A stretch of DNA of 64,000 bases from Tridacna crocea. Lineage: Eukaryota > Mollusca > Bivalvia > Cardiida > Cardiidae. The notes under the pieces were generated by a model that saw nothing but the letters and a program-made list of their open reading frames with translations, made no database searches and had not been told where the DNA came from. Below, in pieces: positions 2,277 to 62,298 of the stretch. Each line of letters opens with the position of its first letter. The stretch's first letter is position 1. The position numbers were made by a program, and so were the translations under genes. The DNA lies in assembly GCA_943736015.1 (NCBI GenBank), contig OX031065.1:43042427-43106426 (forward strand), written 5' to 3'.

Positions 2277-2676
2277 AAAGAAATGGAAATTTTCAATTTA
2301 AAGTGGCTACTTTTGGCATATTGGTGGTCATTTTTTTTTTTTTTTTTCAAAATCAATTATTTAATGGCAACAGTTCACAGATCCATGTTTCCTGGACATT
2401 TTATTTTACCATTACTTGACCAGTCACATCTTCTTGACACTGGCGGGCCAGTCGTACTGCTATCCCCATAATCCTGAATGCCAATGGGGGAGCCACTACT
2501 ACCAATTTTTAAGTCTTTGGTCTGAATAATATAAATCTGTGGATTTCTTGTTGTAACAAAATAATCAAAGATGCTTCTTTAAATTTTTTTTCAAGATAAT
2601 GGTCAAGACATTTTGTTGTATATACATTTCATTTTACTGTTTAGAAATTCAGATTACTTATGACTGTTTTTTTCAG

Positions 2677-2932
2677 AGGAGCATGTTGATGGTGAAGAAA
2701 ATACAAAAAAGAATAAAGAATCTGTTAGACAGAAGTGGACAGCAGATGAAGTGGATGAACTCAAAGACTTTTCCATGATAATATTAAGAAATCGAAGTGT
2801 CCAAATACCAAGGATATTATAAAAGCTAAAGGAATCAGTGAAAATGAAAATGGATTTATTGACCTTAGGAAACTTGGAAACATAAAGAAAAAAATGAGCA
2901 ACATGATCATAAAAATCAAACATAACAAGTAG
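2677..2932 (+). pseudogene. Terminal exon of a SANT/Myb-like domain protein, frameshifted (copy 1)
   Basis: A pyrimidine tract and CAG acceptor (2674-2676) precede an open frame reading EEHVDGEENT..., then RQKWTADEVDEL. After the GACTTTTCC stretch the sense frame must shift by one base, continuing as FHDNIKKSKCPNTKDIIKAK..., GFIDLRKLGNIKKKMSNM, and stopping at TAG 2930-2932. The W-T-x-x-E-V start and the K-N-M end resemble the C-terminal SANT-like domain of a large, poorly described family of metazoan proteins; this is recalled from pattern, not searched. The identical one-base lesion in copy 2 (11477-11732) means it predates the duplication. Upstream exons were not found. It could be a live exon if the lesion is an assembly error, but its presence in both copies argues against that. 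Confidence 0.5.
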
Positions 2933-3971
2933 CAAGCAGTGCATGAACCCTTTTCCTCATAGAAGCAGTTTTTGAGGTTTCTGAAATTTACAACTCTTGA
3001 AAACATAATGAGAAAAACAGAGATTGCTAGTCTCTTTTCCCCGGAATATTTTCTGATCTGTTTGGAACTCAAAGCACCATTAGTCCTTGCTTTGTATACT
3101 TTTAGCCAGATGTTTTCATGTCACAATGTCACTTCAGTGTTAGTGCATGCAACCGTCCAGATTTATCTGTGCTATTTATTCTACATTTATGGATGGATGA
3201 ACATTACACACATGTTCTGCCAAATGGGCTGATGTGCCATTTGGAATATTTTTTATTGCATGTCCAAGGTCAAATTCTTTACTTGTATGGATGGATTCTG
3301 TTCTAACTTTACAGATATGTTCTTCAAAATGGGTTGATGTGTCATTTGAAATAGTGTTTATTGTAGGTCCAAGGTCAAGGTCATAGCACAAGTGCCTGTG
3401 ATAAAAAAATCACTCCCGTGACTGTGCCATACTTCAAACCTGTGGAGAATCGAATTATACTTGATCCTACACATTAATATCACTATCAATTGCGAGAACT
3501 GTTGTTTTGTATCGGTGCAAAGTTCTGTGATTTTGTAGTTTTCCCTCTTGTTGACTTTAACCGCATAAGAATTAAAGAAATGATGATTTCATATCAAGAA
3601 TACTTGATACTGTTGTTTGTTAAGGAGTTAAATGTCAGCATTGTGTGATAAAGGCTTAAAGGAATAAGAGAAAGAAATTATCAGAAAATGTGATGGAAAA
3701 GAAAAGAAAAATCTGAAGACCAGTATTTTCCCTTTTTTTTTCAATGTATTTATTTCTTTCTACCGCCAATCCATCATGTAAGCACTGATAATCTTTTTAT
3801 CGACAAATGTTTTCAAATGAGACATGTCAAAAAATCTGTCGTCTGGTAGAGCTGCTATAATTTTTTTCTTATACTGACATGTTAAATATTCACATAATGG
3901 TACTAATGTAATAGTCTGAAATCTGTTTCATAATGCTGATAAGAAGAGTGAACTACAATCTTTTTCATGAT

Positions 3972-4200
3972 TTAACCCATTACCACACGAGAAAAATTTA
4001 GACTGGTCCAAATTTAAAGCAATTGCAGATGACAAAATAAATGTGATTGAAAAATTGAAATTTGTTCTGGGAAGGGTAGAAAACACTGTGGGAAAAGGAG
4101 AAAATGCTGGTTACCAGCATTTTCTCCTTTTCCCACAGGGTTTTCAAAAGGCTTCTTTCTCAGGGGCGTCAAAAGTAGGGATTGAGTGGTAATGGGTTAA
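3972..4200. mobile_element. Family F TTAA-flanked foldback MITE (copy 1)
   Basis: TTAACCCATTACCACAC at the left and GTGGTAATGGGTTAA at the right are inverted copies, bounded by TTAA on both sides. The centre (4087-4137) is a perfect palindrome with 25-bp arms around one base. The matching position in the duplicated block, 13967-13970, is a single TTAA without the element, so it is an exact insertion with TTAA duplication. TTAA targets and termini starting CCC are hallmarks of piggyBac-type transposition. Confidence 0.92.
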
Positions 4201-4214
4201 ACCTCTACCAAACA

Positions 4215-5229
4215 ATGATGATCTCCGTAGTGACGAAAATTTTAAGACTTCACTTATAAATTCATCATGCAGCTAGCAAAGACTACACAAATTCGAATGA
4301 AGAGTGTGTTTTTCCCTACAAACACGATTTAAAATCAAAGAAAACAATATTTGTCGGCATTAACGGTTTGTTCTCCGTAATCAATATGATTAAAACAGAA
4401 TCAAATGATTTAATCTCCAATTACAACGTAATCACAGACCCTAAGTTGACATGATAATCGCTGTCATACTCCATAATTGACTTCTTTAATTGCCTGAATC
4501 CCCTTGTTTAGTTACATGTAATTGATTGCAAATAAACAATGTCATAGGATAAAGCTAGCCAAAATAACCAACTGATTTTTACACATGTCGACCTTTCATG
4601 AGCCTTGTATCGATTTTTGATAAGTCGTGTTGAATTTCAATGCAGTACCCAAAATTTTTTAGCTGGTCAAGACGACACACAAGCGACTTTTCTTGAGGGT
4701 CAAAACAGGGTATTTTAGAATTTTTATGCGTCAAAACCCAGGTTTACGGGTCAAACGCGAACCCTGCTGTATAGCAGACACATAAAAACCTGGGCTTGTT
4801 TGGGAAAGGTTTAATATAGGGTTAATCCATATTTTTGAGGTCGTTATCATTCACAGAAGCCAGAAAAATTGTTTAACGTCTGAATGCAAAGCACAAGAGT
4901 GTTAACCATTTTGAGGGCCTTTGCAAATGTTAACTGCCGAGGAAATGTGAATTGATGTTATTGCTTAAAATGACTCATTTAACAATAATTTGAAAGTTCC
5001 AAAGCTAAAAATATTTCCAGAAAACAAAGAAACAGACTTTAAACATGCCGAGCTTGAACACAGTTTAATAGCAAGGGGTGGGGTATAGATTAATATATTG
5101 GTTGGTGCGTACTTTTTACTCGCAAAGTTTGACTTGTGAATGTAAATGAAGAAGGGGCACAAAAGTGAATCTCTGATGAAAGTACTTTTGATAAGAACAT
5201 AATAATTTTTTTATGTTTCTTATTTTTAG
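4215..5229. other. Non-coding stretch with decayed repeat ends
   Basis: No exon was recognised. At 4748-4766 there is a terminus-like GGGTCAAACGCGAACCCTG, resembling the inverse of the CAGGGTTC ends of the hAT-like elements further along. It abuts 4770-4812, which matches the right end of family F (GCAGACACATAAAAACCTGG, GGGAAAGG, TTAA). This suggests a hAT-like element inserted into an F copy whose left half is lost or too decayed to recognise. Confidence 0.4.
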
Positions 5230-6255: not shown

Positions 6256-6483
6256 TTAACCCTTTCCCAAACGACAAGTTTTAGACTCTTCCAAACTGAA
6301 AAAGGTTTCAGATGACAATTTTAATTTTAATGAAAATGGTGGAAAATTCTCCAAAAGAGAAGAAAACAATGTGGGAAAAGGAGAAATTGCTGGTTAAGAG
6401 CAATTTCTCTTTTTCCCACAGTGTTTTCAAAAGACTTGTACTGCAGACACGTAAAAAACAGGGCTTGTTTGGGAAAGGGTTAA
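6256..6483. mobile_element. Family F MITE (copy 2, CCCTTTCCCAAAC subtype)
   Basis: TTAA at 6256-6259 and 6480-6483 bound termini TTAACCCTTTCCCAAAC and GTTTGGGAAAGGGTTAA, a 17-bp perfect inverted pair. A central palindrome lies around 6371-6421. This subtype differs from copies ending GGTAATGGGTTAA. Confidence 0.9.
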
Positions 6484-11290: not shown

Positions 11291-11476
11291 TAAATGGGGT
11301 ACTACCAATTTTTAAGTCTTTGGTCTGAATAATATAAATCTGTGGATTTCTTGTTGTAATAAAATAAAGATGCTTCTTTAAATTTTTTTTTCAAGATAAT
11401 GGTCAAGACATTTTGTTGTATATACATTTCATTTTACTGTTTAGAAATTCAGATTACTTATGACCGTTTTTTTCAG

Positions 11477-11732
11477 AGGAGCATGTTGATGGTATAGAAA
11501 ATACAAAAAAGAATAAAGAATCTGTTAAACAGAAGTGGACAGCAGATGAAGTGGATGAACTCAAAGACTTTTCCATGTTAATACCGAGAAATCGAAGTAC
11601 CCAAATACCAAGGATATTATAAAAGCTAAAAGAATCAGTGAAAATGAAAATGGATTTATTGACCTTAGGAAACTTGGAAACATAAAGAAAAAAATGAGCA
11701 ACATGATCATAAAAATCAAACATAACAAGTAG
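11477..11732 (+). pseudogene. Terminal exon of a SANT/Myb-like domain protein, frameshifted (copy 2)
   Basis: Second copy of the exon at 2677-2932, with the same CAG acceptor (11474-11476), the same one-base frame lesion in GACTTTTCC and the same TAG end (11730-11732). Replacement changes relative to copy 1 include G to I near the start and FHDN to FHVN, so the copies have diverged under little visible constraint. Confidence 0.5.
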
Positions 11733-12510
11733 CAAGCAGTGCATGAACCCTTTTCCTCATAGAAGCAGTTTTTGAGGTTTCTGAAATTTACAACTCTTGA
11801 AAACATAATGAGAAAAACAGAGATTGCTAGTCTCTTTTCCCCGGAATATTTTCTGATCTGTTTGGAACTCAAAGCACCATTAGTCCTTGCTTTGTATACT
11901 TTTAGCCAGATGTTTTCATGTCACAATGTCACTTCAGTGTTAGTGCATGCAACCGTCCAGATTTATCTGTGCTATTTATTCTACATTTATGGATGGATGA
12001 ACATCACACACATGTTCTGCCAAATGGGCTGATGTGCCATTTGGAATATTTTTTATTGCATGTCCAAGGTCAAATTCTTTACTTGTATGGATGGATTCTG
12101 TTCTAACTTTACAGATATGTTCTGCAAAATGGGTTGATGTGTCATTTGAAATAATGTTTATTGTAGGTCCAAGGTCAAGGTCATAGTACAAGTGCCTGTG
12201 ATAAAAAAAAATCACTCCCGTGACTGTGCCATACTTCAAACCTGTGGAGAATCGAATTATACTTGATCCTACACATTAATATCACTATCAATTGCGAGAA
12301 CTGTTGTTTTGTATCGGTGCAAAGTTCTGTGATTTTGTAGTTTTCCCTCTTGTTGACTTTAACCGCATAAGAATTAAAGAAATGATGATTTCATATCAAG
12401 AATACTTGATGCTGTTGTTTGTTAAGGAGTTAAATGTCAGCATTGTGTGATAAAGGCTTAAAGGAATAAGATAAAGAAATTATAGGACAATGTGGTGGAA
12501 AAGAAAAGAA

Positions 12511-13706
12511 CTAGAGGCGCTTGAGCGCCTGTATCGCTCCACAGGCCTGATTTTTCTGTAACAGTGAAGAGAAGTTTTTAACAATTACCATTCAATCCTG
12601 CATTTTAGCTACCAACTGAAGAGAAAAAGCAAAGAAAAAGATTGTGAGAAAAGAAGAAAATAATGGTAACCAGCATGTTCTTAGTTTTCCACAATAATTT
12701 CTACCCTTTTTGATACAAGTTTTACTAATCTGAAGCTATACTATACTGTCTGCAACATCTTCAAATTATGAGCAGTTACAAAATTTTGTCATCTGGTTAT
12801 AGTTAGAGAGGGCCTTGTCACAAACCATTTTGGGTGGGGAAACATCTAAATATGGAAAACTAGGTCACCAGGATTAACGCCGCTTCTGTCCACTTTGCAC
12901 TTGGTCACTAGTAGGTCAACAAACCTTTACCAGAACTAATAAAAGTGCAGAGGTTCTCTTGTTTTATATGAAAAGGACTGTGGATTATGTAAAGCAACCC
13001 TCTTTAACCCTTTACCAAACAAAAAAATTTGGGATGTGACCAAATCGAAATCATTTGCAAACAACAAATTAAACATTGATGAAATGATGATTTCCCTCTT
13101 TGATAGAGTAGAAAACACTGAGGAAAAGGAGAAAATGCTGATTACTAGCATTTTCTCCTTTTCCAACAGTGTTTTCTTCCAAAGACTTCTTGTCTTCGGT
13201 TGATTATGAGTAATTTCACCTTTTCCCACAGTGAAAACAACAATGAAATCCAATGAATAGTTTGAGAGAAGAAATTTTTCAAAGATTTTACTTCATACCA
13301 TCAAAGGAAAATGAGTCTCCCATAAAAGCCATGTTTTTTGACGGATCTTTTTTTTTTAAGGAATTCTGTAAACCTCTACCTAAGGAACATTCCTGCAAAA
13401 TAATAATGCTATCCAATTAGTGGTTGGGGAGGAGAAGATTTTTAAAGGTTTTTTACTTTGGTTGCCATGGCAACCAGAATTCTTCACGGAACACCATTAT
13501 TTGAAGGGATTTTAAAGAGGACCGCCTAAGGAACATTCCTGTGAAATTTGGTAAAAATCCAGTCAGCAGTTTCTGAGGAGAAGTGTTTTAAAGAAAAAGT
13601 TTACGGACGCATGCACGGACGAACAGACGAACCAACAAACGGACGGACGCACGACGGACACAACGCCATGACAATAGCTTGCTGGCCTTCGGCCAGTGGA
13701 GCTAAA
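12511..13706 (+). mobile_element. Element I: Helentron-like non-autonomous element with known empty site
   Basis: The left end CTAGAGGCGCTTGAGCGCC forms a hairpin and leads into GTATCGCTCCACAGG. The right end is GGCCTTCGGCCAGTGGAGCT followed by AAAA, also a hairpin; GCTCCACAGG and CCAGTGGAGC are inverted ends. In the undisturbed block copy 1, the A-rich target (AAAAGAAAAGAAAAATCTG near 3698-3714) is uninterrupted, so the insertion fell between A residues with no visible target duplication. Absent duplication and an A/T dinucleotide target fit Helitron/Helentron-type insertion. The 3' part shares the GGTTGCCATGGCAACCAGA box with families A and B. An F MITE is nested at 13004. Confidence 0.8.
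13004..13218. mobile_element. Family F MITE (copy 4), right end lost
   Basis: TTAACCCTTTACCAAAC at 13004-13020 and the central hairpin (GGAAAAGGAGAAAATGCTG, TAGCATTTTCTCCTTTTCC) at about 13115-13165 are present. No GGTAAAGGGTTAA terminus follows, so the right boundary is approximate. It is nested in element I. Confidence 0.65.
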
Positions 13707-14044
13707 AACCTGAAGACCAGTATTTCCCCCCTTTTTTTACAATGTATTTCTTTCTTTCTACCACCAATCCATCATGTAAGCACTGATAATCTTTTTATCA
13801 ACAAATGTTTTCAAATGAGACATGTCAAAAAATCTGTCATCTGGTAGAGCTGCTATAATTCTTTTCTTATAACATGTTAAATATTCACATCATGGTACTA
13901 ATGTAATAGTCTGAAATCTGTTTCATGATGCTGATAAGAAGAGTGAACTACAATCTTTTTCATGATTTAAACCTCTACCAAACAGTAGTTAATTCCTTGA
14001 TTTGGCATGACCCCAGAGGTGTAATAGTAGTGAAAACGTTTTTA

Positions 14045-15280
14045 AACAAGAAAGGCCAAGATGGCCCTGGATCGCTCACATCAATTTTTGAGAGGACCAT
14101 AGCCATTTTTTTTTTGAGGCATTGAGACACTGGAAATAAAATCATTATTTTGACAAGCAATTTTCAAAAGGTCACATGTAAAAGTCCTTTTCAAATCTGA
14201 CCAGCAGTTTCAGAAAAGAAGAATTTTTAGGAGTTTCTTAATTTCTGTACAGTGCAAGTAGCCCCCATTCACCAGAGCCATGTTTCTTGACTTATCGAAA
14301 TTTCACGATACTTTTTGAAAACGGTCATTCAAGGAACATTTCTGTGAAATAATGTAAAAATCTGACCAGCCGTTTCAGAGAAGAAAAAATTTCAAGAATT
14401 TCTTTATGTTCATATACTGTAAGTAGCTCCCATTCACCAGAGCCATGGTTCTTGACCTATCAAAATTTTGCGATACTTTTTGAAAAGGGTCATTCAAGGA
14501 ACATTTCTGTGAAATTATGTTAAAATTTGACCAGCCATTTCAGAGAAGAAGAAAAATTTTCAAGAATTTCTTTATGTCCATATACTGCAAGTAGCCCCCA
14601 TTCACCAGAGCCATGTTTCTTGACGGATCAAAATTTTGCAAACAAATTTTTAAAGGATCACCAACGGAACATTGCTGTAAAATTATTTTAAAATCTGACT
14701 ACGGGTTTCAGAGAAAAAGAATTTTCAAGAATTTCTTCTTTTCCATATAGTGCAAGAAGCCCCCATTCACCAGAGCAATGTTTCTTGACGGATCAAAATT
14801 TCACGAACAATTTTTGAAAAGGGTCACCCAAGGAACATCTCTGTCAAATTATTTTAAAATCTGACAGCCTTTCGAGAGAAGTTTTACGAATCTCTTCATT
14901 CCCTATAGTGCAAGTAGCCCCTATTTACCAGAGCCATGTTTCTTGACGGATCAAAATTTCGCAAACAGGTTTTGAAAAGGGTCACCCCAGGAACGTCTCT
15001 GTAAAATTATCTTAAAATCTGGCCAGCGGTTTCAGAGAAGAAGACTTTTAAAGAATTTCCTAGAAAACTGCACTTGGTTGCTATGGCAACCAGAGTTTCT
15101 AACGGAAACAGATTCTGTGAACAAATTTTAAAGAGGACCTCCCAATGAACATTTCACCCAAGTTTGGTCCAAATTGGCCCAGCGGTTTAGGTGGAGTTGA
15201 TGTTTAAAGAATCGTTGAAGACGGACACCGAGTGATCCTAAAAGCTCCCCTTGAGCGTGTTGTGCTCGGGTGAGCTAAAA
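14045..15280 (+). mobile_element. Family B tandem-core element (copy 1)
   Basis: The left end has AAGGCCAAGATGGCCCTGG and ATCGCTCACATCA. The core has about six units of ~150-165 bp marked by CACCAGAGCCATGTTTCTTG, AAAGGGTCACCCAAGGAAC and TCTGACCAGCGGTTTCAGAG. The 3' segment has the GGTTGCTATGGCAACCAGAG box. The right end is GTGCTCGGGTGAGCTAAAA, whose GGTGAGC inverts the left GCTCAC. Confidence 0.8.
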
Positions 15281-15297
15281 AAAAAAACGGGCACCAA

Positions 15298-22350: not shown

Positions 22351-22356
22351 AATATA

Positions 22357-23554
22357 ACAAGAGAGCCAAGATGGTCCTATGTCACTCACCAGAATATTTT
22401 TTAGAGGACCATAGCAGTTTTTTTGTTTTGGAGGTATTGAAACACTGGAAACAAAATCATTACTTTGCCAAGCAAGTTTTAAAGGGACACCTGTAAAAGC
22501 CATTTCAAAATCTGACCAGCGGTTACAGAAAAGAACAATTTTTAAGTTTCTTAATTTCCGTAATGTGCAAAAAGCCCCCATTCACCAGAGCCATGTTTCT
22601 CAACCTATCAAAATTCCACGTAGAATTTTTGAAAAGGGTCATTCAAGGAACATTTCTGTGAAATTATTTTAAAATCTGACCAGCCATATCAGAGAAGAAG
22701 AATTTTCAAGAATTTCTTCATGTCTGTATAGTGCAAGTAGCCCACATTCACCAGAACCATATTTCTTTAAGAATCAAAATGTTCGCGAACAATTTTTGAA
22801 AATGGTCTCGCAAGGAACATTGTTGTGAATATATGTTCAAATCTGACCACCGATTTCAAAGAAGAATTTTTAAGAATTTCTTCATGTCATGTAGTGCAAG
22901 TAGCCCCCGTTCACCAGAGCCATGTTTCTTGACAAATCAAAATTTCACGAACATGTTTTAAAAAGGGTCACCAAAGGAACATCTCTGTGAAATTATTTCA
23001 AAATCTGACCAGCCATTCAAGAGAAGCATAATTTTTAAGACTTTCTTCATTTCCCTATAGCACAAAAAGCCTCCCATTCACCGAAGGCATGTTTCTTTAT
23101 GGATCAAAATTTCACACACACTTTTTGAAAAGGGTCACCCAAAGAACACCCCTATCAAGTTATTTCAAATTTGACTAGCTGTTACAGAATAGAAGAATTT
23201 TTAAGAATGCCTTCATTTCCCTATAGTGCAAGTAGCCCCCATTCACCAGAGCAGTGTTTCTTGACGGATCAAAATTTTGCAAACAATTTTTGAAAAGGGT
23301 CACCCAAGGAACATCTCTGTGAAATTATTTTAAAATCTGGCCAGCGATTTCAGAGAAGACTTTTAAAGAATTCTTTGGTTTCCATGGCAACCAGAGTTTA
23401 TGACGGAATCAAATTCTGTGAACATTTTTAGGACCTCCCAAGGAAAATTCCAGCCAAGTTTAGTCTAAATTGGCCCAGCGGTTTAGAAGGAGTTGATGTT
23501 TAAAGAATTGTGGATGAAGGATACCTGGTGATCCTAAAAGCTCCTAAGTTAAAA
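22357..23554 (+). mobile_element. Family B tandem-core element (copy 3)
   Basis: The left end AACAAGAGAGCCAAGATGG with GTCACTCACCAGAAT, six to seven core units, a GGTTTCCATGGCAACCAGAG box, then GATCCTAAAAGCTCC. The right terminus is shortened: the GAGCACNTTGTGCTC stem is missing before AAGTTAAAAA. Confidence 0.78.
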
Positions 23555-32577: not shown

Positions 32578-33005
32578 TGGCATCAGGCTGTGATTCAGAT
32601 AGCTTTTATAGTGATTTCAGTGGATTTTCTATTGAGGAAATATTGAGGAGTGAGTAAGGAGGAGTGATGGATCAGACATTTCTGTATCTGATCCATTTTC
32701 TGTCTCATCAAATTCTGATGAAGAGGCATCAACATGGTCTACAAATCTGAGCAGAGCAAATGTTACAACATTTAGCCAGAGAGTGGGTATTTTGTTCGAG
32801 CTTATGGCTGAGAAAAACGCGATAAACTTTTTCTTGAAATTCTTCCCCAAGTGTCTCATTGAAATGTTGGTGAGAGAGACAAACAATTATGCCTCTCATT
32901 ACTTTCAAACCAAGGTTGACAAATTATGGACTGCCACAAATTACAACGAGATGATTGCTTTTATTGGTATTCATGTTGTGATGTCAGCGCTTGCTGTGCC
33001 ATCAT

Positions 33006-33234
33006 ATAACCCTTTACCACATGTCAGAATTTCAGACCTATCCAGATTGAAAGCATTTGCAGAACACAATTTCAGAGTGGCTCAAAAAGTGCAATTTTGC
33101 TTTTATAGGGTAGAAAACTTTGTGGAAAAGGGAGAAAATGCTGGTTACCAGCATTTTCTCCTTTTCCCACAAAGTTTTCAAAAGGCTTCTTCCTCAAGGG
33201 CATTAAAAGGCGTCATTGTGTGGTGAAGGGTTAA
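33006..33234. mobile_element. Family F MITE (copy 10) inside the piggyBac pseudogene
   Basis: ATAACCCTTTACCACATGTC (the left TTAA has mutated to ATAA) to TGTGTGGTGAAGGGTTAA. The central palindrome is GAAAATGCTGGTTACCAGC with long A/T-rich arms. Confidence 0.85.
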
Positions 33235-34139: not shown

Positions 34140-34806
34140 TACACCAGAGATCAACCTGGCCTTTTGCTATTCCAAGTGTCCCGCAGATAATTACTGACCC
34201 GTTTTGAGAAACTAACAAAATATTTACATGTAAATGTCACCAGTCAGAATCCAGTCCGAGGACAACCAGGACATGAAAAATTGTGCCACATAAGACCATC
34301 ACTAGATACAGTATCCAAAATCTGCCGCGAAAAATTATGGCCCATACAAGCAACAATCTGTTGATAAGGGAATGATTGCTTTTAAACTTCGCCTTTCATT
34401 CAAGCAGTACCTTCTAGCAAAGCCTACACAATTTGGCATAAAAGTTTGGGAACATGCAAGTCCACACAATGTTTATGTACACAAGTTCCAGATCTATACA
34501 GGAAAACAGGGTGGTGGAGATAGGGAAGAAGGACTGGGGTCACAGGTTGTGAAGGACTTGACAAAAACCCTAAAAGGAAGATCCCACATCATTTACATTG
34601 ACAATTTTTCAAGCCCAGCCCTATTTGAGAGCATGACAAGATTTCTTGTCTTGGAACTGTGCGAGCCAATAGGAAAAGGGATGCCAAAGGCATTAAGTTC
34701 CTGAAAAACAGGGGTGACAGCCAGGTACTGCAAAAAGGAAATTTAGTTGCCATGGCGTGGAAGGATAAGAAGCTTGTCTATCACCTCACTGCAAGCACAG
34801 ATCCAA

Positions 34807-34956
34807 ACAAGAGCTGTCGGAACGAGAGCAATTCCCCCCGAAAGCCCTATTTCCAGAAACTGTGACCTTAAACCTGTTGCTGGGATCAGATGACCCTGAT
34901 TATTGTAATTTCAAAATGGTCTCCAGCTGGCCACCTTGTATCCAATCCAAGGAAAA
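34807..34956 (+). repeat. Left-end fragment of a tandem-core element (L-like)
   Basis: AACAAGAGCTGTCGGAACGA and GAGCAATTCCCCCCGAAAGC have the AACAAGAG start shared by families A, B, C and L. No core follows; a C element begins at 34957. Confidence 0.45.
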
Positions 34957-41399: not shown

Positions 41400-41634
41400 T
41401 TAACTCTTTACCAAACAACAAAATTTTAGACTGGTCCAAATTTGAAAGCACCATTGCAGACAACAAAATGAAAGTGACTGAAAATTTGTAACTTGTTCTG
41501 GGAAGGGAAGAAAACATATTGTGGGAAAAGGAGAAAATGCTAGGTAACCAGCATTTTCTCCTTTTCCCAAAACGTTTTCAAAAGGCTTTTTTCTCAGGGT
41601 CATCAAAAGTAGGGATTGTGTGGTACTGTGTTAA
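41400..41634. mobile_element. Family F MITE (copy 11)
   Basis: TTAACTCTTTACCAAACAAC to GTGTGGTACTGTGTTAA with TTAA at both ends. The hairpin GGGAAAAGGAGAAAATGCT / AGCATTTTCTCCTTTTCCC is at about 41523-41570. Confidence 0.88.
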
Positions 41635-42388
41635 AAAGAAAAGTAACATTTTCTGCTTTTCTCACAATATATTTCTACCCTAAAACTTAATGTGAATTTC
41701 TATCCTAGGAACATTTTTGTAAGTAATTTGAAATAAAGATGACTATGGTTAAAGAAAATTCAAATGTCCGCCTATTAGTCCGATATCAGTGCCTTTGACA
41801 GTGATTCATAGTCAGAAATTTCACCTCTGCATATTATTTAAGTTGAAGATTCCGCCTTACAGACAGACTAAGTCCCATTTTCCACCTAAAAATTTGATTG
41901 AAGAAGTCTAAGTCAGATTTTCCGCCCAAGATATTTTTTTACGCCTAAAGCCTAGATGGAATCCGCCTAGTGAATGGAAGTACATTCCTACAAATTAGAC
42001 GGAATGATCAGAAAATTCCATGTCCGCCTTAAGTTAGCAGGGAAATTGCATTTTCCGATAATTTTTAGGCGGAATCCGGATTATTATAGGGGGAAACTGC
42101 CTTAAGATTTCGTACGGGAATTATTTACATGTACCTTTCAACACATTTATTTTGGATATTGGCATGAATGTTACACTTTAGATATATAATTTTTTTGATT
42201 GATGAAGGTTCGAGTTGAGACTTAGTTCTACGCTGTTGTCTTGCAATAGGTATCGGGTAACCCCTGTATCATTACAGTATCTCTGGACGAAATTTAATGA
42301 AATTTCATAGATCTATTTGAATATTGTTTACAAAAAGCCCTAGACATACATTATTTGATTTTATATAATGATTTGCTGTGTTATTTGA
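41635..42388. other. Unclassified repeat-like stretch rich in CCGCCT/AGGCGG
   Basis: Between about 41767 and 42085, TCCGCCTA, TCCGCCTTAC, ATCCGCCTAG, GTCCGCCTTAAG and TAGGCGGAATCCGG occur on both strands. This suggests a degenerate inverted element, but the ends could not be fixed. Nothing is seen in the remainder. Confidence 0.35.
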
Positions 42389-43615
42389 AACAAAGGGCCA
42401 AGATGGCCCTGGATCGCTCACCTGAATTTTTTAGGGGATCATAGCCTATATTTTTTTTTTTTAGGTATATGAGGTATTGAAACATTGGAAAAAAAATTTG
42501 CCAAGCAGTTTTCAAAAGGTCACCTGTAAAAGTCATTTCAAAAACTGACCATCAGTTTCAGAAAAGAAGAATTTTTAAGAATATATAGTGCAAGTAGCCC
42601 CCATTCACCAGAGCCATGTTTCTTGATGGATCACAATTTAGCCAACAATTTTTGAAAGGGTCATTCAAGTAACATCCCTATGAAATTATTTTAAAATGTG
42701 GCCAGCGGTTTCAGAGAAGAAGAATCTTCAATAATTTCTTCATGTCTATATAGTGCGAGTAGCCCCCATTCACCAGAGCCATGTTTCTTGACAGATCAAA
42801 ATTTCGCGAACAATTTTTGAAAAGGGTCACCCAAGGAACATTGCTGTAAAATCATTCTAAAATCTGACCAGTGGTTTCAGAGAAGAAGAACTTTCAAGAA
42901 TGTCTTCATTTCCATATAGTGCGAGTAGCCCCCATTCACCAGAGCCATGTTTCTTAACAGACCAAAATTTCACAAACAATTTTTGAAAAGGGTCACCCAA
43001 GGAATATCTCTGTGAAATTATTTTAAAATCTGACAGCCGTTTCAGAGAAAAAGAATTTTCAAGAATTTCTTCATTTTCTGTATAGTGCAAGTAGCCCCCA
43101 TTCACCACAGCCATGTTTCTTGACATACCAAAATTTTTGAAAAGGGTCACCCAAAGAACATCCTTGAAAAATTATTTCAAATTCTGACCAGTGGTTTCAG
43201 AGAAGAAGAAATTTTAAGAATTTCTTCATTTCTGGATAGTGCAAGTAGCCCCCATTCACCAGAGCCATGTTTCTTGACGGATCACTTTTTGAAAAGGGTC
43301 ACCCAAGGAACATCCCTGTGAAATCATTTTAAAATCTGGCCAGCTGTTTCAGAGAAGAAGATTTTTAAAGAATTTCTTTGAAAATTCCATTTGGTTGCCA
43401 TGGCAATCAGAATTTTGGATGAAACCAAATTCTGTGAACAATTTTTAAAGAGGACCTCCCAAGGAACAATCCAGCCAAGGTTGGTCCAAATTGGCCCTGC
43501 GGTTTAGGAGGAATGTTCAAAGAATTGTTGACGATGCATGCACCATGACCCACGACGGGCACCAGGTGATCCTAAAAGCTCCCCTTGAGTACGTTGTGCA
43601 CAGGTGAGCTAAAAA
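42389..43615 (+). mobile_element. Family B tandem-core element (copy 4)
   Basis: The left end CAAAGGGCCAAGATGGCCC with GGATCGCTCACCTGAATTTT. Core units repeat CACCAGAGCCATGTTTCTTG at spacings of 166, 166 and 154 bp (42775, 42941, 43107, 43261). Then come GGTTGCCATGGCAATCAGAA and the right end CACAGGTGAGCTAAAAA. GCTCACCTG and CAGGTGAGC are exact inverted ends. Confidence 0.88.
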
Positions 43616-44229: not shown

Positions 44230-45466
44230 GGATTTGTCTGTTAAAGAAAAAAAACGTTGTGGAAAAACAAAGAAACAAGAGGGCCAAGATGGCCCTGGTT
44301 CGCTCACCTGAATTTTTGAGAGGTCCATAGCAAATTTTTTCACAATCTAAACAACCATTTCAGAGAAGAATAATTTTTAAGAATTTCTTCATGTCTGTAT
44401 AGTGTAAATAGCCCACAGCCATAAGAGCCATGTTCCTTGATGGATCAAAATATTTTGAGTAATTTTTGAAAAGGGTCAACTAAGATACATTTCTGATCAG
44501 CAGTTTCAGAGAAAAATTTTTAAAAATTCCTTCATGGCCACATAGTGCAAATAGCCCTCATTCACCAGAGCCATGTTTATTGACGAATCAAACTTTAATG
44601 AACACCTTTTGAAAAGGGTCACCCAAGGAACATCTCTGTGAAATAATTTCAAAATCTGATTGGCGGTTTCAGAGAAGAAGAGTTTTTAAGAGTTTCTTCA
44701 TTTCCCTATAGTGCAAGTAGCCCCCTTTCACCAGAGCCATATTTTTTGACGAATCAAAATTTAGCGAACAACTTTTGAAAAGGGTCATCCAAGGAACATC
44801 TCTGTGAAATTATTTCAAATTTTGACCAGCGGTTTCAGAGAAGAAGAATTTTAAAGAATTTCTGTATAGTGCAAATGGCCCCCATTTACCAGAGCCACGA
44901 TTCTTGATGGATCAAAATTTCGCAAACAGTTTCTGAAAAGGGTCATTCAAGGAACATCTCTGTGAAATTATTTCAAAATCTGACCAGCCGTTTTACAGAA
45001 AAAGAATTTTTAAGAATTCCTTTATTTCTGTATGGTGCAAGAAGCCCCCATTCACCAGAGCCATGTTTCTTGACGTATCAAAATTTCACGAACCATTTTT
45101 GACCAGTGGTTTCAGAGGAGGAGATTTATAAAGAATTTCCTAGAAAATTCAATTTGGTTGCCATGGCAACCAGAGTTTTTGACGGAATCAAATTCTGTGG
45201 AAAATTTTTAAAGAGGATGTCCCATGGAACATTCCAGCCAAGTTTGGTCCAAATTGACCAAGTGGTTTAGGAGTTGATGTTTAAATAATTGTTGACAACG
45301 CACAACGGACACCCAGTGACCCTAAAAGCTCCCCTTGAGCATGTTGTGCTCGGGTGAGCTAAAAAATGCTGGTTACCAGCATTTTCTCCATTTCTCACAA
45401 TGTTAAATTTAACAGCTGTCTTTCCCATAGTGTTAAAATTTGGAAGCATGTGGTAAGAGGTTAACA
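44230..45466. mobile_element. Family F MITE (copy 12) split by a B element
   Basis: Left of the B element, GGGATTTGTCTGTTAAAG and AACGTTGTGGAAAAACAAAG match an F left hairpin arm. Right of it (45366 on), AATGCTGGTTACCAGCATTT, CACAATGTTAAATTTAACAG and GTGGTAAGAGGTTAAC give the rest of an F element. The left terminus is decayed and its position is uncertain. Confidence 0.55.
44273..45365 (+). mobile_element. Family B tandem-core element (copy 5)
   Basis: The left end AACAAGAGGGCCAAGATGG with CCCTGGTTCGCTCACCTGAA, about five core units, the TTGGTTGCCATGGCAACCAG box, and the right end GTTGTGCTCGGGTGAGCTAA. It appears inserted in the central hairpin of an F MITE. Confidence 0.85.
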
Positions 45467-45786: not shown

Positions 45787-46015
45787 TTATCCCATTACCA
45801 CACAATCCCTACTTTTGACGCTCCTGAGAAAGAAGCCTTTTGAAAACCCTGTGGGAAAAGGAGAAAATGCTGGAAACCAGCATTTTCTCCTTTTCCCACC
45901 GTGTTTTCTACCCTTCCCAGAACAATTTTCAAATTTTTAGTCACATTTATTTTGTCGTCTGCAAATGCTTTCAATTTGGACCAGTCTAAATTTTTCTCAT
46001 GTGGTAATGGGTTAA
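45787..46015. mobile_element. Family F MITE (copy 13), opposite orientation
   Basis: TTATCCCATTACCACACAAT (left TTAA mutated to TTAT) to TCATGTGGTAATGGGTTAA. Relative to copies 1 and 17 the asymmetric interior is reversed (TACTTTTGACGCTCC on the left, TTTGGACCAGTCTAAA on the right). Confidence 0.88.
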
Positions 46016-53342: not shown

Positions 53343-54455
53343 AACAAGAGTTGTCATCAGACAGCATAGCTCGCCAGGAAAGTTGCTTCTGCTTCACTAT
53401 GAAAATATCCAAATGGGCATGCATGTCATCTGGCTCATCATGTACGGAGGTTGGGATGGAAATGAAAGAAATTTTGGACCAAGTCCAGCATCATACCAAA
53501 TATAAATTAAATCTATCAGATGGTTTGGAAAATATGAGCTCTTGAAAACTTTTAACATGACATTTCTAGTCCATGACCTTGATCTCCAGGTCACAGGAAG
53601 GGGCAGGGATGGTACTGTAAGAAATTTTTAGACTAAAATCTATCATGATAACAAATATACATGTAAATTAAATCCATCAAAGGGTTTAGAAAATATTAGA
53701 TCTTAAAAACTTTAACATTAAATTTCAAAGTTCATGACCTTGACCTCTAGGTCAGGGGCAGGGATGATACGGAAAAACATTTTGGACCAATATCTAATAC
53801 CAAATATAAACTAAATCTATCAAAGGGTTTAGAAAATATGAGATCTGAAAAACTTTGAAGCAAAACTTCAAGATGAAATTTCTGTTAAAGTCCATGACTT
53901 GACCTGTAGGGGCAAGGATGGTACTGAAAGAAATTTTGAACCAATATCTATCACCATACCAAACATAAACTAAATGCATCAAAGGGTGTAGAAAATACAA
54001 GATCTTTAAAACTTTAATGCAATACTTAACTCATTACCAAACAACTAAATTTCAGGTTTGTCCAAATTGAAAACATTTCCAGACGACAAAATAAAAGTGA
54101 CTGGAATTTTGAAATTTGTTTTGTGAAGAGTAGAAAACATTGTGGGAAAAGGAGAAAATGCTGGTAGCCAGCATTTTCTCCTTTTCTCACAATGTTTTCT
54201 AAAGGCTTCTTTTTCAGGGGCATCAAAAGTAGGGATTGTGTGGTAATGGGTTAACAAAATTTCATAGTCCATGACCTTGACCTCTGGGTCACAGGCAGGG
54301 GTGGAGATGGTTCTGAAAGAAATTTTGGACCAATATCTATCATCATAACAATTCTGAAGCAGATCCATCAAACGGTTTAGAAAATAATTATAAGCTCTTT
54401 AAAAACTTTAACATAAATGTGGACACCGACGCCAGGGGTAGTGCAATAGCTACAG
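53343..54455 (+). mobile_element. Family L tandem-core element, in intron 1
   Basis: The left end AACAAGAGTTGTCATCAGAC with AGCATAGCTCGCC. Units of about 154 bp are marked by GAAAGAAATTTTGGACCA at 53464, 53617, 53771, 53926 and, after subtracting a nested F MITE, 54315; each has TCCATGACCTTGACCTCTAG and AAACTAAATCTATCAAAGGG. The right end GGACACCGACGCCAGGGGTA with GTGCAATAGCTAC is inverted relative to the left ATAGCT. Confidence 0.72.
54026..54254. mobile_element. Family F MITE (copy 15), nested in L
   Basis: TTAACTCATTACCAAACAAC to GTGTGGTAATGGGTTAA, TTAA on both sides. Its hairpin is GAAAATGCTGG / TAGCCAGCATTTTC. The L unit reads through if it is removed. Confidence 0.9.
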
Positions 54456-55922: not shown

Positions 55923-56151
55923 TTAACTCATTACCACACGAGACAATTTTGGACTGGTCCAACTTGAGAGCATTTGCAGACGACAAAATAAAGGTGACTG
56001 AAAAATAGAAATTTGTTCTGGAAAGGGTAGAAAACACTGTGGGAAAAGGAGAAAATGCTGGTTACCAGCATTTTCTCCTTTTCCCACAGTGTTTTCAAAA
56101 GGCTTCTTTCTCAGGGTCGTCAAAAGTAGGGATTGAGTGGTAATGGGTTAA
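55923..56151. mobile_element. Family F MITE (copy 17), best-preserved hairpin
   Basis: TTAACTCATTACCACACGAG to GAGTGGTAATGGGTTAA, TTAA on both sides. The centre (56030-56096) is a perfect palindrome with 33-bp arms around one base. It lies in intron 2 of the 53-kb gene. Confidence 0.93.
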
Positions 56152-59251: not shown

Positions 59252-60339
59252 GGTAACCTGTAAAAGTCATTTCAAAATTTGACCATCAGTTTCAAAAAGA
59301 AGAATTCTTAAGAATGAGAGCCATTTTTCTTGACAGATCAAAATTTTAACAACAAGTTTTGAAAAGGAACACCCAAGGAAAATTGCTGAGAAATTCTTTT
59401 AAAATCTGACCAGGGTTTCAGAGAAAGAGAATTTTCAAGAATTTCATCATGTCCGTATAGCACAAGAAGCCCCCATTCACAAGAGCCAAGTTTCTTGACG
59501 GATCAAAATTATATGAACATTTCTTTAATTAAAAGGGTTACCCATGGCACAGTGCTGTTAAATTATTTTAAAATCTGACCAGGAGTTTCAGAGAAGAAGA
59601 ATTTTCCAGAATTTCTCCATTTCTGTATAGTGTAACTAGCCTCCATTCACCAGAGCCATGTTTCTTGACAGATCAAAATTTCGCAAAGAGTTTTTGAAAA
59701 GGGTCACCAAAGGAACATCTCTGTGAATTATTTCAAAATCTGTCAGTCCATTTCAGAGAAGAAGAATTTTCAAAAATTTCTTCATTTTCCTATAGTGCAA
59801 GTAGCCCCCATTCACAAGAGCTATGTTTCTTAACCGATCAAAATTTCGCAAACAGCTTTTGAAAAGGTCACCCAAAGAACATCCCTGAGAAATTATTTCA
59901 AAATCTGACCAGCTGTTTCAAAGAAGAATAATTTTTAAGAATTTCTTCATTTCTGTATAGTGCAAGGAGCCCCCATTCACCAGAGCCATGTTTCTTAACA
60001 GATCAAAGTTTCACGAACAATTTTTGAAAAGGGTCACCCAAGGAACATCTCTATGGTATTATTTTAAAATCTGGCAAGCAGTTTCAGAAAAGAAGATTTT
60101 TAAAGAATTCTAACAAAAATCCAATTTGGTTGCCATGGCAACCGAAGTTTTATACAGAATCAAATTCTGTGAACAGTTTTTAAAGAGGACTTTCCCAGGA
60201 ACATTCGAGCCAAGTTTGGTCCAAATTGGCCCATCGATTTAGGAGGAGTTGATGTTTAAAGAATTGTTGACAACGCACGACTGACACTGGGTGATCCTAA
60301 AACCTCCCCCAACCATGTTGTGCTCAGGCGAGTTAAAAA

Positions 60340-61056
60340 GTCTGAGTTTACTGAAACGTTTAGTTGTCAATGACAACACAAGGAACACTTTCTCCAATGT
60401 TTTGTTAAACCTAATGTTTATTACTTGCTGATTAAAGCTAAATATTGACCGACGCATAGATTATCTCTTATGCTCGTAAAATAAAGCACAACATTCATAA
60501 TTGAATGGGTCCAGGAAACTTATATAATCTGCCAAACTGTTTCCTTAATCTTTAACGGTCTATATCGGTGGATATACTTCCAAAATGCATTTATAAATTT
60601 ATGAAGTCCAAAAAGTGGGAAGGAACAGTACTGTGATAGATAGATATTACTTTTTTTTTTGAAAAAAAAAAAAAAGAGATTGAAAGGAGAATGGGTCAGT
60701 CATTAATTAATAAGGGAAGAACTGCGGTTTAGAAGTAAAAATCTAAATACAATTTCTTACAACCCATATCTCGCAGCATTAGAAAATATCTTGAGAGCAG
60801 GAACAACTGTCACTCCTATCCCATTATATTTTCTACACTTTCAAAAATTAATTCCATTTTTGTTACTTGTAGATCTAGATATGTTTTGGAATGTGAAAAA
60901 AATTGCCTGTACAAATTTATCTTGGCTACAAGGGCATTGTCAATAACTTCAAAAAAAAACAACTTGACATCATAAAACGAAAGTATCTGCAAGTATTTAT
61001 TGATAAAATTTATTCACAGTCACACACTCTAAAACCTTACTTTTTACTGGTTTCAG
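60340..61056. other. No feature recognised
   Basis: AT-rich with T and A homopolymers near 60649-60675. It ends at a TTTTACTGGTTTCAG acceptor-like sequence before the piggyBac remnant. Confidence 0.3.
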
Positions 61057-62298
61057 ATTGAGCCCTTCCAGGAGATCCCAGGGCTTACATTCGGAGACTT
61101 TGATTACAAGTCCTCTCCTACTTATTACTTTTGCAAACTTTTTCCCATGAAGCTTTTGGCACAGTTAGTGACGTGGACCATGGGTATGCTCCATGGGTGA
61201 TGAATCGGTCTGGAGCTAAAGGGACCCCACATGGTATGATGTCATGTTCCTTGAGATGAAGGCATTCCTGGTCATCAATATACTGATGGGAATTAATTCT
61301 CAGTCTTCCTCGCCTGGAGATGTACGGGAGTTCCAACAGTCTGATAGGCAATTCTTGAGTTGCATCGATCATGACCTGCTACCGTTTCAGGAAAATCTTA
61401 CAGTATTTCCATGTTGCTGATAAGGGAACGCAGCCAGCCCTGGATACTCCAGAGTATCGCCTCTGTAGGGTTCAGCCAGTAATAGATGTGGTAGCAGGCA
61501 CATTCCAGACATCATACACTCTTTTCCAGGAAGTCTCTGTCGACGAGGCGATGATCCTATTTAGCGGCAGACTTTCCTACTGCCAGTATATGCCAGCCAA
61601 GCCTGTAAAGTGTGGGATTAAGGTCTGGGCTCTCTCTGAAGTCAGAAACAGTTATATGTCCAAGTTCGGTACTTGGGGCGACAGAACAACACCACAGAAC
61701 TTGGATTTGGTTACAACGTTGTGACACAGCTCACAGACTACCTGCAGGGAACACTATGCATGCTGTTTTTCAACAACTTTTTCACAGGTGTACAACTGAT
61801 GAAGGACTTATTGGCAAAGGGGTTGTATGCCTGCTACAGCTGGGAGATTCCAACCTTGTACCCACTGTGTGAAAAGACAAGAAGCTCAGGTACACCATCT
61901 GTCAACCAGACCCTACAAGAGTGATGGGTGCCAAACGGAGATGTGGACCAGCTATTTTGAACCTTCGACAGCCTCAAACAGTGCACCAGTACAATTAGTT
62001 AATGGGTCGTTTGGATTTGAACAATCAGCTCCGGATGAAGTATGATGATGGACACAAAAAGAAAGCCTGGCGATATATCTTCTAGTTCCTATTGAACAGC
62101 ACCATTGTCAACGCTTTCATCTTGTTTCAAACGGCATCAACAAGGATGAATAAGAAGAAGAGATTTTGTCATCTTGACTTCCGCATGGAGCTGATTGAAG
62201 AGTTGATAGGTGGATTTACAAAGAGAAAGAGCACTCCACTGAATGCGATGGGTGAAGCAGGAGTACCTCCAACTGCTCTGTTGTTAGTCTTTTGCTAA
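61057..62298 (+). pseudogene. piggyBac-type transposase pseudogene (second copy)
   Basis: In order along the strand but in several frames: IEPFQEIPGLTFGDFDY, TWYDVMFLEMKAFLVINILM, LPRLEMYGSSNSLIGNS then a stop, MTCYRFRKILQYFHVAD, VSVDEAMILFSGRLSYCQYM with PAKPVKCGIKVWALSE, ELGFGYNVVTQLTDYLQGT, FFNNFFTGVQLMKDLLAKGL, LMGRLDLNNQLRMKYDDGHK, and HLDFRMELIEELIGGF at the end. These are the consecutive blocks of the piggyBac DDE transposase (D-E-A-M-I, A-K-P-x-K-x-G-I-K-x-W, D/N-N-F-F-T, and a late M-G-x-x-D/N). In FFNNFF the usual catalytic Asp appears as Asn. At least four frameshifts or stops make it inactive. The C-terminal Cys-rich domain is missing. Confidence 0.85.

Follow-up and report, generated by a model that had tools for sequence, protein, structure and literature searches.

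An exact duplication of TTAA was observed at the insertion of the short element F at position 3972 and at one further site, in a piggyBac element with empty sister copies. F is very probably a non-autonomous piggyBac/TTAA MITE that moves by cut-and-paste, and an E-lineage transposase is the likeliest to act on it at TTAA. The cut-and-paste movement itself, and the protein of E rather than that of a relative as the mover of the 3972 copy, are what we infer from these data. The window is the whole stretch of 64,000 nucleotides that was analysed (C10:43042427-43106426), in a genome of 1.049 Gb and 31 contigs whose size and content point to a eukaryote.

The filled and the empty site lie in two copies of a duplicated block (Table 1). 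By direct reading and alignment, copy 1 runs ...TTTTTCATGAT-TTAA-CCCATTACCAC...GTGGTAATGGG-TTAA-ACCTCTACCAAACA and copy 2 runs ...TTTTTCATGAT-TTAA-ACCTCTACCAAACA. The longest duplication that both texts permit is four bases, TTAA, with an insert of 225 bp, and the exact target duplication that the original prediction had read from 3972-4200 against the single TTAA at 13967-13970 was borne out. The block was recovered by BLAST in two pieces (2497-3708/11300-12510 and 3707-3988/13704-13983), with substitutions at 33 of 1466 aligned bases, of which 22 fall in the 1200 further left and 11 in the 266 next to F. A genome search with 13700-13990 gave eight matches (all eight candidates scored), two long and six of 45-83 bp; with only two long copies, the block was ruled out as a dispersed transposon. 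The insert of about 1.2 kb that breaks copy 2 (12511-13703) starts close to a palindromic GAGGCGCTTGAGCGCC, has a hairpin of GCTGGCCTTCGGCCAG towards its end and contains an older F-like piece at 13004-13191.

Table 1. Features located in the window (positions counted from its first letter).
Feature	Position	Strand	Basis or remark
Duplicated block copy 1, first part	2497..3708	+	BLAST; partner 11300-12510, 97.6% identity
Duplicated block copy 1, left flank of F	3707..3971	+	Alignment; partner 13704-13966
F copy, 229 bp with both TTAA (225 bp inserted)	3972..4200	+	Reading, alignment
Left TTAA target copy	3972..3975	.	Reading, alignment
Left terminal inverted repeat CCCATTACCAC	3976..3986	+	11 bp, perfect match to right end
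Internal palindromic hairpin core	4079..4145	.	95.5% to own reverse complement over 67 bp; self-match and fold
14-bp motif CTTTTGACGCCCCT, position 26 from right tip, common to E left end	4162..4175	-	Reading, motif scans
Right terminal inverted repeat (GTGGTAATGGG on + strand)	4186..4196	-	Reading
Right TTAA target copy	4197..4200	.	Reading, alignment
Right flank beyond TTAA, common to copy 2 (13971-13984), F-terminus-like	4201..4214	+	Alignment
Duplicated block copy 2	11300..13984	+	Broken by ~1.2 kb insert at about 12511-13703
Single TTAA, empty site	13967..13970	.	Reading, alignment
piggyBac remnant, upstream piece	32666..33010	+	42-44% to family A
Older F copy, between two pieces of piggyBac remnant	33006..33234	+	79%
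piggyBac remnant, downstream piece	34200..34845	+	Best family A, 53% over 34324-34695; E 46-56%
F copy	41400..41634	+	86%
F copy	45787..46015	-	94% to 3972 copy
F copy	54026..54254	+	86%; joined flanks match three nearby F-free places at 75-78%
F copy	55923..56151	+	93%
piggyBac remnant, E/L024 lineage	61075..62265	+	Best segments 52-78% amino acid identity, overlapping weaker 38-40%

The further claim that F inserted after the block was duplicated could not be sustained from two copies, since precise excision leaves an identical picture. The two copies agree equally with F arriving once the block had been duplicated, with its loss from one of them by excision, and with a duplication that drew on a haplotype lacking F. 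According to the available text of PMC2872659, piggyBac transposases usually excise precisely and imprecise events are reported too, so excision may have produced the empty site, with an origin from an unfilled haplotype also allowed. It is possible, though rather unlikely, that F preceded the block duplication and then left copy 2 tracelessly at 13967. Excision without footprint, usual for piggyBac in the same text (PMC2872659), would permit it, and F differs from its family consensus at 9/229 sites compared with 33/1466 between the blocks, so that F need not be the younger. Leaning towards late arrival, the 3972 copy has zero private bases among 45 aligned copies, but this test is weak because recurrent changes can mask private ones and because five of the 44 others (L051, L053, L059, L073 and L074) have none either. 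As judged from these alignments, late insertion would be mildly favoured.

Empty sites were also sought elsewhere: for 70 F copies, the two flanks were fused at a single TTAA and the joined sequence was compared with all other sequence gathered. Two F copies were found inside piggyBac family-A elements with empty sister copies. At the first (L031, 844-1070), eight of nine fully aligned sisters were gapless with a single TTAA, reading ...GTTGGT-TTAA-GCCAAT..., and the exception (L023) was altered and without TTAA. At the second (L033, 3350-3578), F carries TTAA on both sides, and none of the seven fully aligned empty sisters reads TTAA (TTTA in five, a longer T run in two; L013 and L031, aligned on one side only, are left out of this count). 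It must therefore be assumed that T had changed to A in that lineage by the time F inserted, which would be the simplest account of these readings. Since the filled copy is the exception among its sisters at both sites, F arrived there and did not leave. Weaker candidates for empty sites (window 54026, L070, L085 and L071, 73-82% identity) were left out of the count. The TTAA target-site duplication of a piggyBac/TTAA MITE was found, with one of the three junctions needing an assumed prior substitution.

Genome-wide counts of the F ends were made with 31-mers that did not presuppose TTAA, the backward-read control pattern giving zero matches in each. The left end had 5,450 exact matches, with TTAA directly before 4,899 (89.9%), and the right end 32,180, with TTAA directly after 28,964 (90.0%), while TTAA begins at a background of 0.86% of window positions. 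Copies of F at targets other than TTAA had been named as what would speak against the original prediction, and the end counts bear on this in part: around 90% of exact ends stand at TTAA, and about 10% genome-wide have none adjoining, which may be mutated TTAA or other targets. Among 107 near-full copies, TTAA was within 4 bp of both ends in 79, of one end in 23 and of neither in 5. The 39 fetched copies (TTAA on the left in 39/39, on the right in 38/39) are no independent test of TTAA, because the query used to pick them included it. A preference of F for its own ends as target was rejected, as there was no clear excess: 12 of 78 copies adjoin an F-type terminus (7 sites, grouped by judgement), with 31 of the 552 window TTAA sites (5.6%) as reference. 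Exact right ends outnumbered exact left ends about sixfold (32,180 vs 5,450), which suggests several subfamilies with one common right end.

F has the properties of a MITE, being short (229 bp), putatively non-coding and of high copy number (32,180 exact right ends). Its size is homogeneous: with 40 of 1552 candidates scored, there were 39 full matches besides the 3972 copy, 38 of them 227-231 bp and one 224 bp long. The foldback character proposed for F was supported; F has inverted termini and a 32-pair stem in the consensus. The CCC termini, also part of the original prediction, hold for both ends of the 3972 copy, whereas the left end of other copies is mostly CTC: in the 39 other fetched copies, the left end was CTC in 28, CCC in 8 and other in 3, and the right end CCC in 32 and CTC in 6, with no TTAA there in one. 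The part of PMC2872659 at hand gives piggyBac/TTAA MITEs a terminal inverted repeat of generally 12-19 bp and a terminal motif CC[C/T]T. The 3972 copy has an 11-bp perfect repeat starting with CCCA, which departs from a strict reading of that motif; AmiPB4, listed there as piggyBac-like, starts with CCCATT (PMC2872659, in the same part).

Remnants of piggyBac transposase had been expected in the window and are present at 61075-62265 and at 32666-33010 with 34200-34845, the latter two pieces showing 36-68% identity to family A by segment. The window also holds related repeat arrays at 14040-15281, 22356-23544, 42384-43615, 44311-45366 and 59252-60340, roughly 74-81% alike over their length.

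A profile search of the genome with PF13843 yielded 118 matches. A locus was obtained for 30, of which 26 have no stop in the matched stretch; two of the 88 matches without locus fall in the window. Element E, a piggyBac element of 7,203 bp at C5:7864466-7871668 (L086, L027, L087), is bounded by TTAACCCATTACCG... and ...GGTAATGAGTTAA. Among loci L025-L029, L027 shares 99.5-99.98% identity with each of the remaining four over 4.1 kb, and the copies on C9 and C5 share 99.9% identity over 7,203 aligned columns. Genome matches numbered 11 for its left end, nine of which reach at least 92% along almost the entire query, and nine for its right end, seven of which reach at least 93%, with end matches also on C3, C9, C10, C15 and C18. 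TTAA was present at nine of ten left tips and six of seven right tips fetched. At the left end of the C17 copy (L096), the left TTAA directly adjoins an apparent F-type terminus, and E also holds nested F-type copies.

An open frame of 486 amino acids in E (L027) matches the chains of piggyBat (9c0f) and piggyBac (6x67), and residues 53-485 align to piggyBat. The marks of the piggyBac superfamily were all found in E: the Pfam domain DDE_Tnp_1_7, matched over 1-349 of 349; three aspartates, which we take to be the catalytic DDD triad of piggyBac and which line up in the alignment of E and piggyBat by eye; and a C-terminal cysteine-rich stretch, read by eye from the same alignment. Judging from its sequence, E is autonomous-looking and apparently intact. 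A separate acidic frame of 122 amino acids lies upstream in E and may be a first exon.

The sequence common to F and E covers only about 40 bp at one of their ends and 15-20 bp at the opposite one. The motif CTTTTGACGCCCCT occurs in the left end of E at positions 26, 61, 96 and 131 with 0, 0, 2 and 3 mismatches, that is, with an exact 35-bp period; one further match in E, at 6370, is inside a nested F copy, and shuffled E gave a mean of 0.1 matches (20 shuffles). In the F consensus, the same motif stands at position 26 from the right tip, with 0 mismatches, and nowhere else, and in the 39 fetched copies it was found with up to one mismatch at position 26 in 24, elsewhere in 3 and not at all in 12. 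The similarity of the ends was further assessed on the bases beyond the five terminal ones with 1000 shuffles (raw values, 24 comparisons). The observed score was reached by 0/1000 shuffles for E-left/F-right, 5/1000 for E-right/F-left, 5/1000 for E-right/F-right and 780/1000 for E-left/F-left. Since the right end of E also resembles the right end of F, while E-left is unlike F-left, the pairing of ends is not exclusive.

Clear inverted ends were found in five other elements: a single one from each of the families A, B and C, and two related ones, D and D2. As partners of F, families A (TTAACCCTTTATATAC), B, C and D/D2 were rejected on these five elements: their termini diverge after the first bases, CTTTTGACGCCCCT was absent from the terminal 200 bp, and none of the 20 end comparisons with them fell below 0.05 (lowest, 0.053). 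For six further transposase loci (L009, L012, L024, L030, L036 and L038), the ends were not found, nor was CTTTTGACGCCCCT at up to 2 mismatches within 1.5 kb on either side. An autonomous-looking piggyBac element with ends matching those of F was thus found in E, and E is probably the driver of F as far as end sequences tell. The piggyBac-type assignment made for F at the outset was reinforced by the empty sites in sister copies, the genome-wide end counts and this matching element. The transposase of the E lineage would most likely recognise the TTAACYCWTTACC terminus together with the CTTTTGACGCCCCT motif 26 bases in. It would then cut F out at TTAA and insert it at a TTAA elsewhere, with TTAA left on both sides.

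A piggyBac lineage other than E may instead drive F, the two elements merely sharing an ancestral terminus. The left end of F matches E over about 15-20 bp only, no ends could be located for the E-like L024 or for several other families, and for 88 of the 118 transposase matches there is no locus, so a closer partner than E may exist. This reading is nonetheless unlikely, as the 14-bp motif stands at the same offset in F and E, and E is the sole fit among six delimited elements.

In old copies of F, the hairpin core is about twice as conserved as the interior around it. In the 22 copies below 80% identity, the share of sites that differ from the consensus is 0.13-0.14 in the stem arms and 0.27-0.34 elsewhere in the interior; the termini, at 0.14-0.17, are conserved as well. 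Changes at stem pairs in 107 copies, counted as cells, were one-sided in 254 and two-sided in 90, and pairing was kept in 78 of the 90; 59 of these represent one subfamily state, leaving 19 of 31. A control with partners slid by three gave 19 two-sided changes. These counts make paired changes between the arms suggestive, not strong. That the hairpin is a working part, aiding transposition or being corrected arm against arm, would help to explain why F has tens of thousands of copies and its probable driver about ten, but it is a doubtful proposition. No exact match to the hairpin core was found in viral_contigs or genome_contigs.

On the right of F, identity between the block copies stops 14 bp past TTAA (4201-4214 = 13971-13984), and in the stretches compared no more homology was found beyond it. 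The first 13 flank bases, ACCTCTACCAAAC, show two mismatches to the F terminus pattern. Support from the right-hand side is therefore thin; as this flank is short and resembles an F terminus, F probably landed in a TTAA that adjoined an older end of F type. When 4201-4830 was searched in the genome, with 40 of 378 candidates scored, the one full match was the query place itself and the other 39 span just about 4768-4829. The two differences in 13 and the abrupt end of identity would also fit a pair of separate TTAA elements with similar termini, in which case 13967 would be no true empty site. This is very improbable, as both copies show the same departures from the F terminus, hardly to be expected of independent elements; TTAA is still the junction, and the L031 site shows TTAA independently.

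Membership of F in another TTAA-using superfamily, Kolobok, is the least credible reading: Kolobok elements and T2-MITEs also use TTAA, but their termini are RR (AG) or AGGRR in the available part of PMC6004289, whereas, of 39 fetched F copies, 36 have CCC or CTC at the left end and 38 at the right, and the ends match those of E, a carrier of piggyBac transposase. The original argument that TTAA and CCC tie F to piggyBac was supported as to the type, but TTAA alone does not suffice, as Kolobok shares it; what decides the superfamily is that F has CCC or CTC at its ends and that these match E.

F resembles known systems in several respects. The CMITEs of Acropora, as far as the available text goes (PMC2872659), are piggyBac/TTAA MITEs that start with CCC, with a TTAA duplication read from a filled and an empty allele, an internal region conserved from family to family and, in the same genome, an autonomous piggyBac-like element whose ends match. 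They show much the same package, and F therefore belongs to an already known kind of element; CMITEs are, however, 96-108 bp long with other terminal inverted repeats (PMC2872659, same excerpt), whereas F has 229 bp, a 32-pair consensus stem and far more copies. In piggyBat of Myotis lucifugus, a left-end motif is evenly spaced as in E (bp 11-16, 55-60 and 99-104) and recognised by the transposase core, according to the portion of PMC11707139 at hand. This provides a precedent for a repeated subterminal transposase site, by analogy with which the CTTTTGACGCCCCT repeats of E are a candidate site; E differs in its motif, CTTTTGACGCCCCT, and in the 35-bp spacing, the motifs being compared by eye only. 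The Kolobok/T2-MITE system of Xenopus shares the TTAA target and MITE amplification with F but has AG or AGGRR termini and belongs to another superfamily, in the accessible text (PMC6004289). The mPok MITEs of Daphnia are tied to Pokey, listed in the partial source as a piggyBac-superfamily element, which differs in having a specific insertion site in rDNA besides its other targets.

In a literature search with five sequence strings, 17 papers contain one or the other of two strings, none of them a transposon paper judging by the titles, and the other three were not found; nor did the library searched have any paper that combines piggyBac, MITE, TTAA and 'empty site'. F otherwise fits textbook piggyBac behaviour. 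With thousands of F copies, a recently spread E, and a terminus and motif offset common to both, F and E form a promising pair of MITE and autonomous element. The pair makes it testable which end sequences are required by this piggyBac transposase, and why the MITE is more than a thousandfold as numerous as its probable driver, present in about ten copies.
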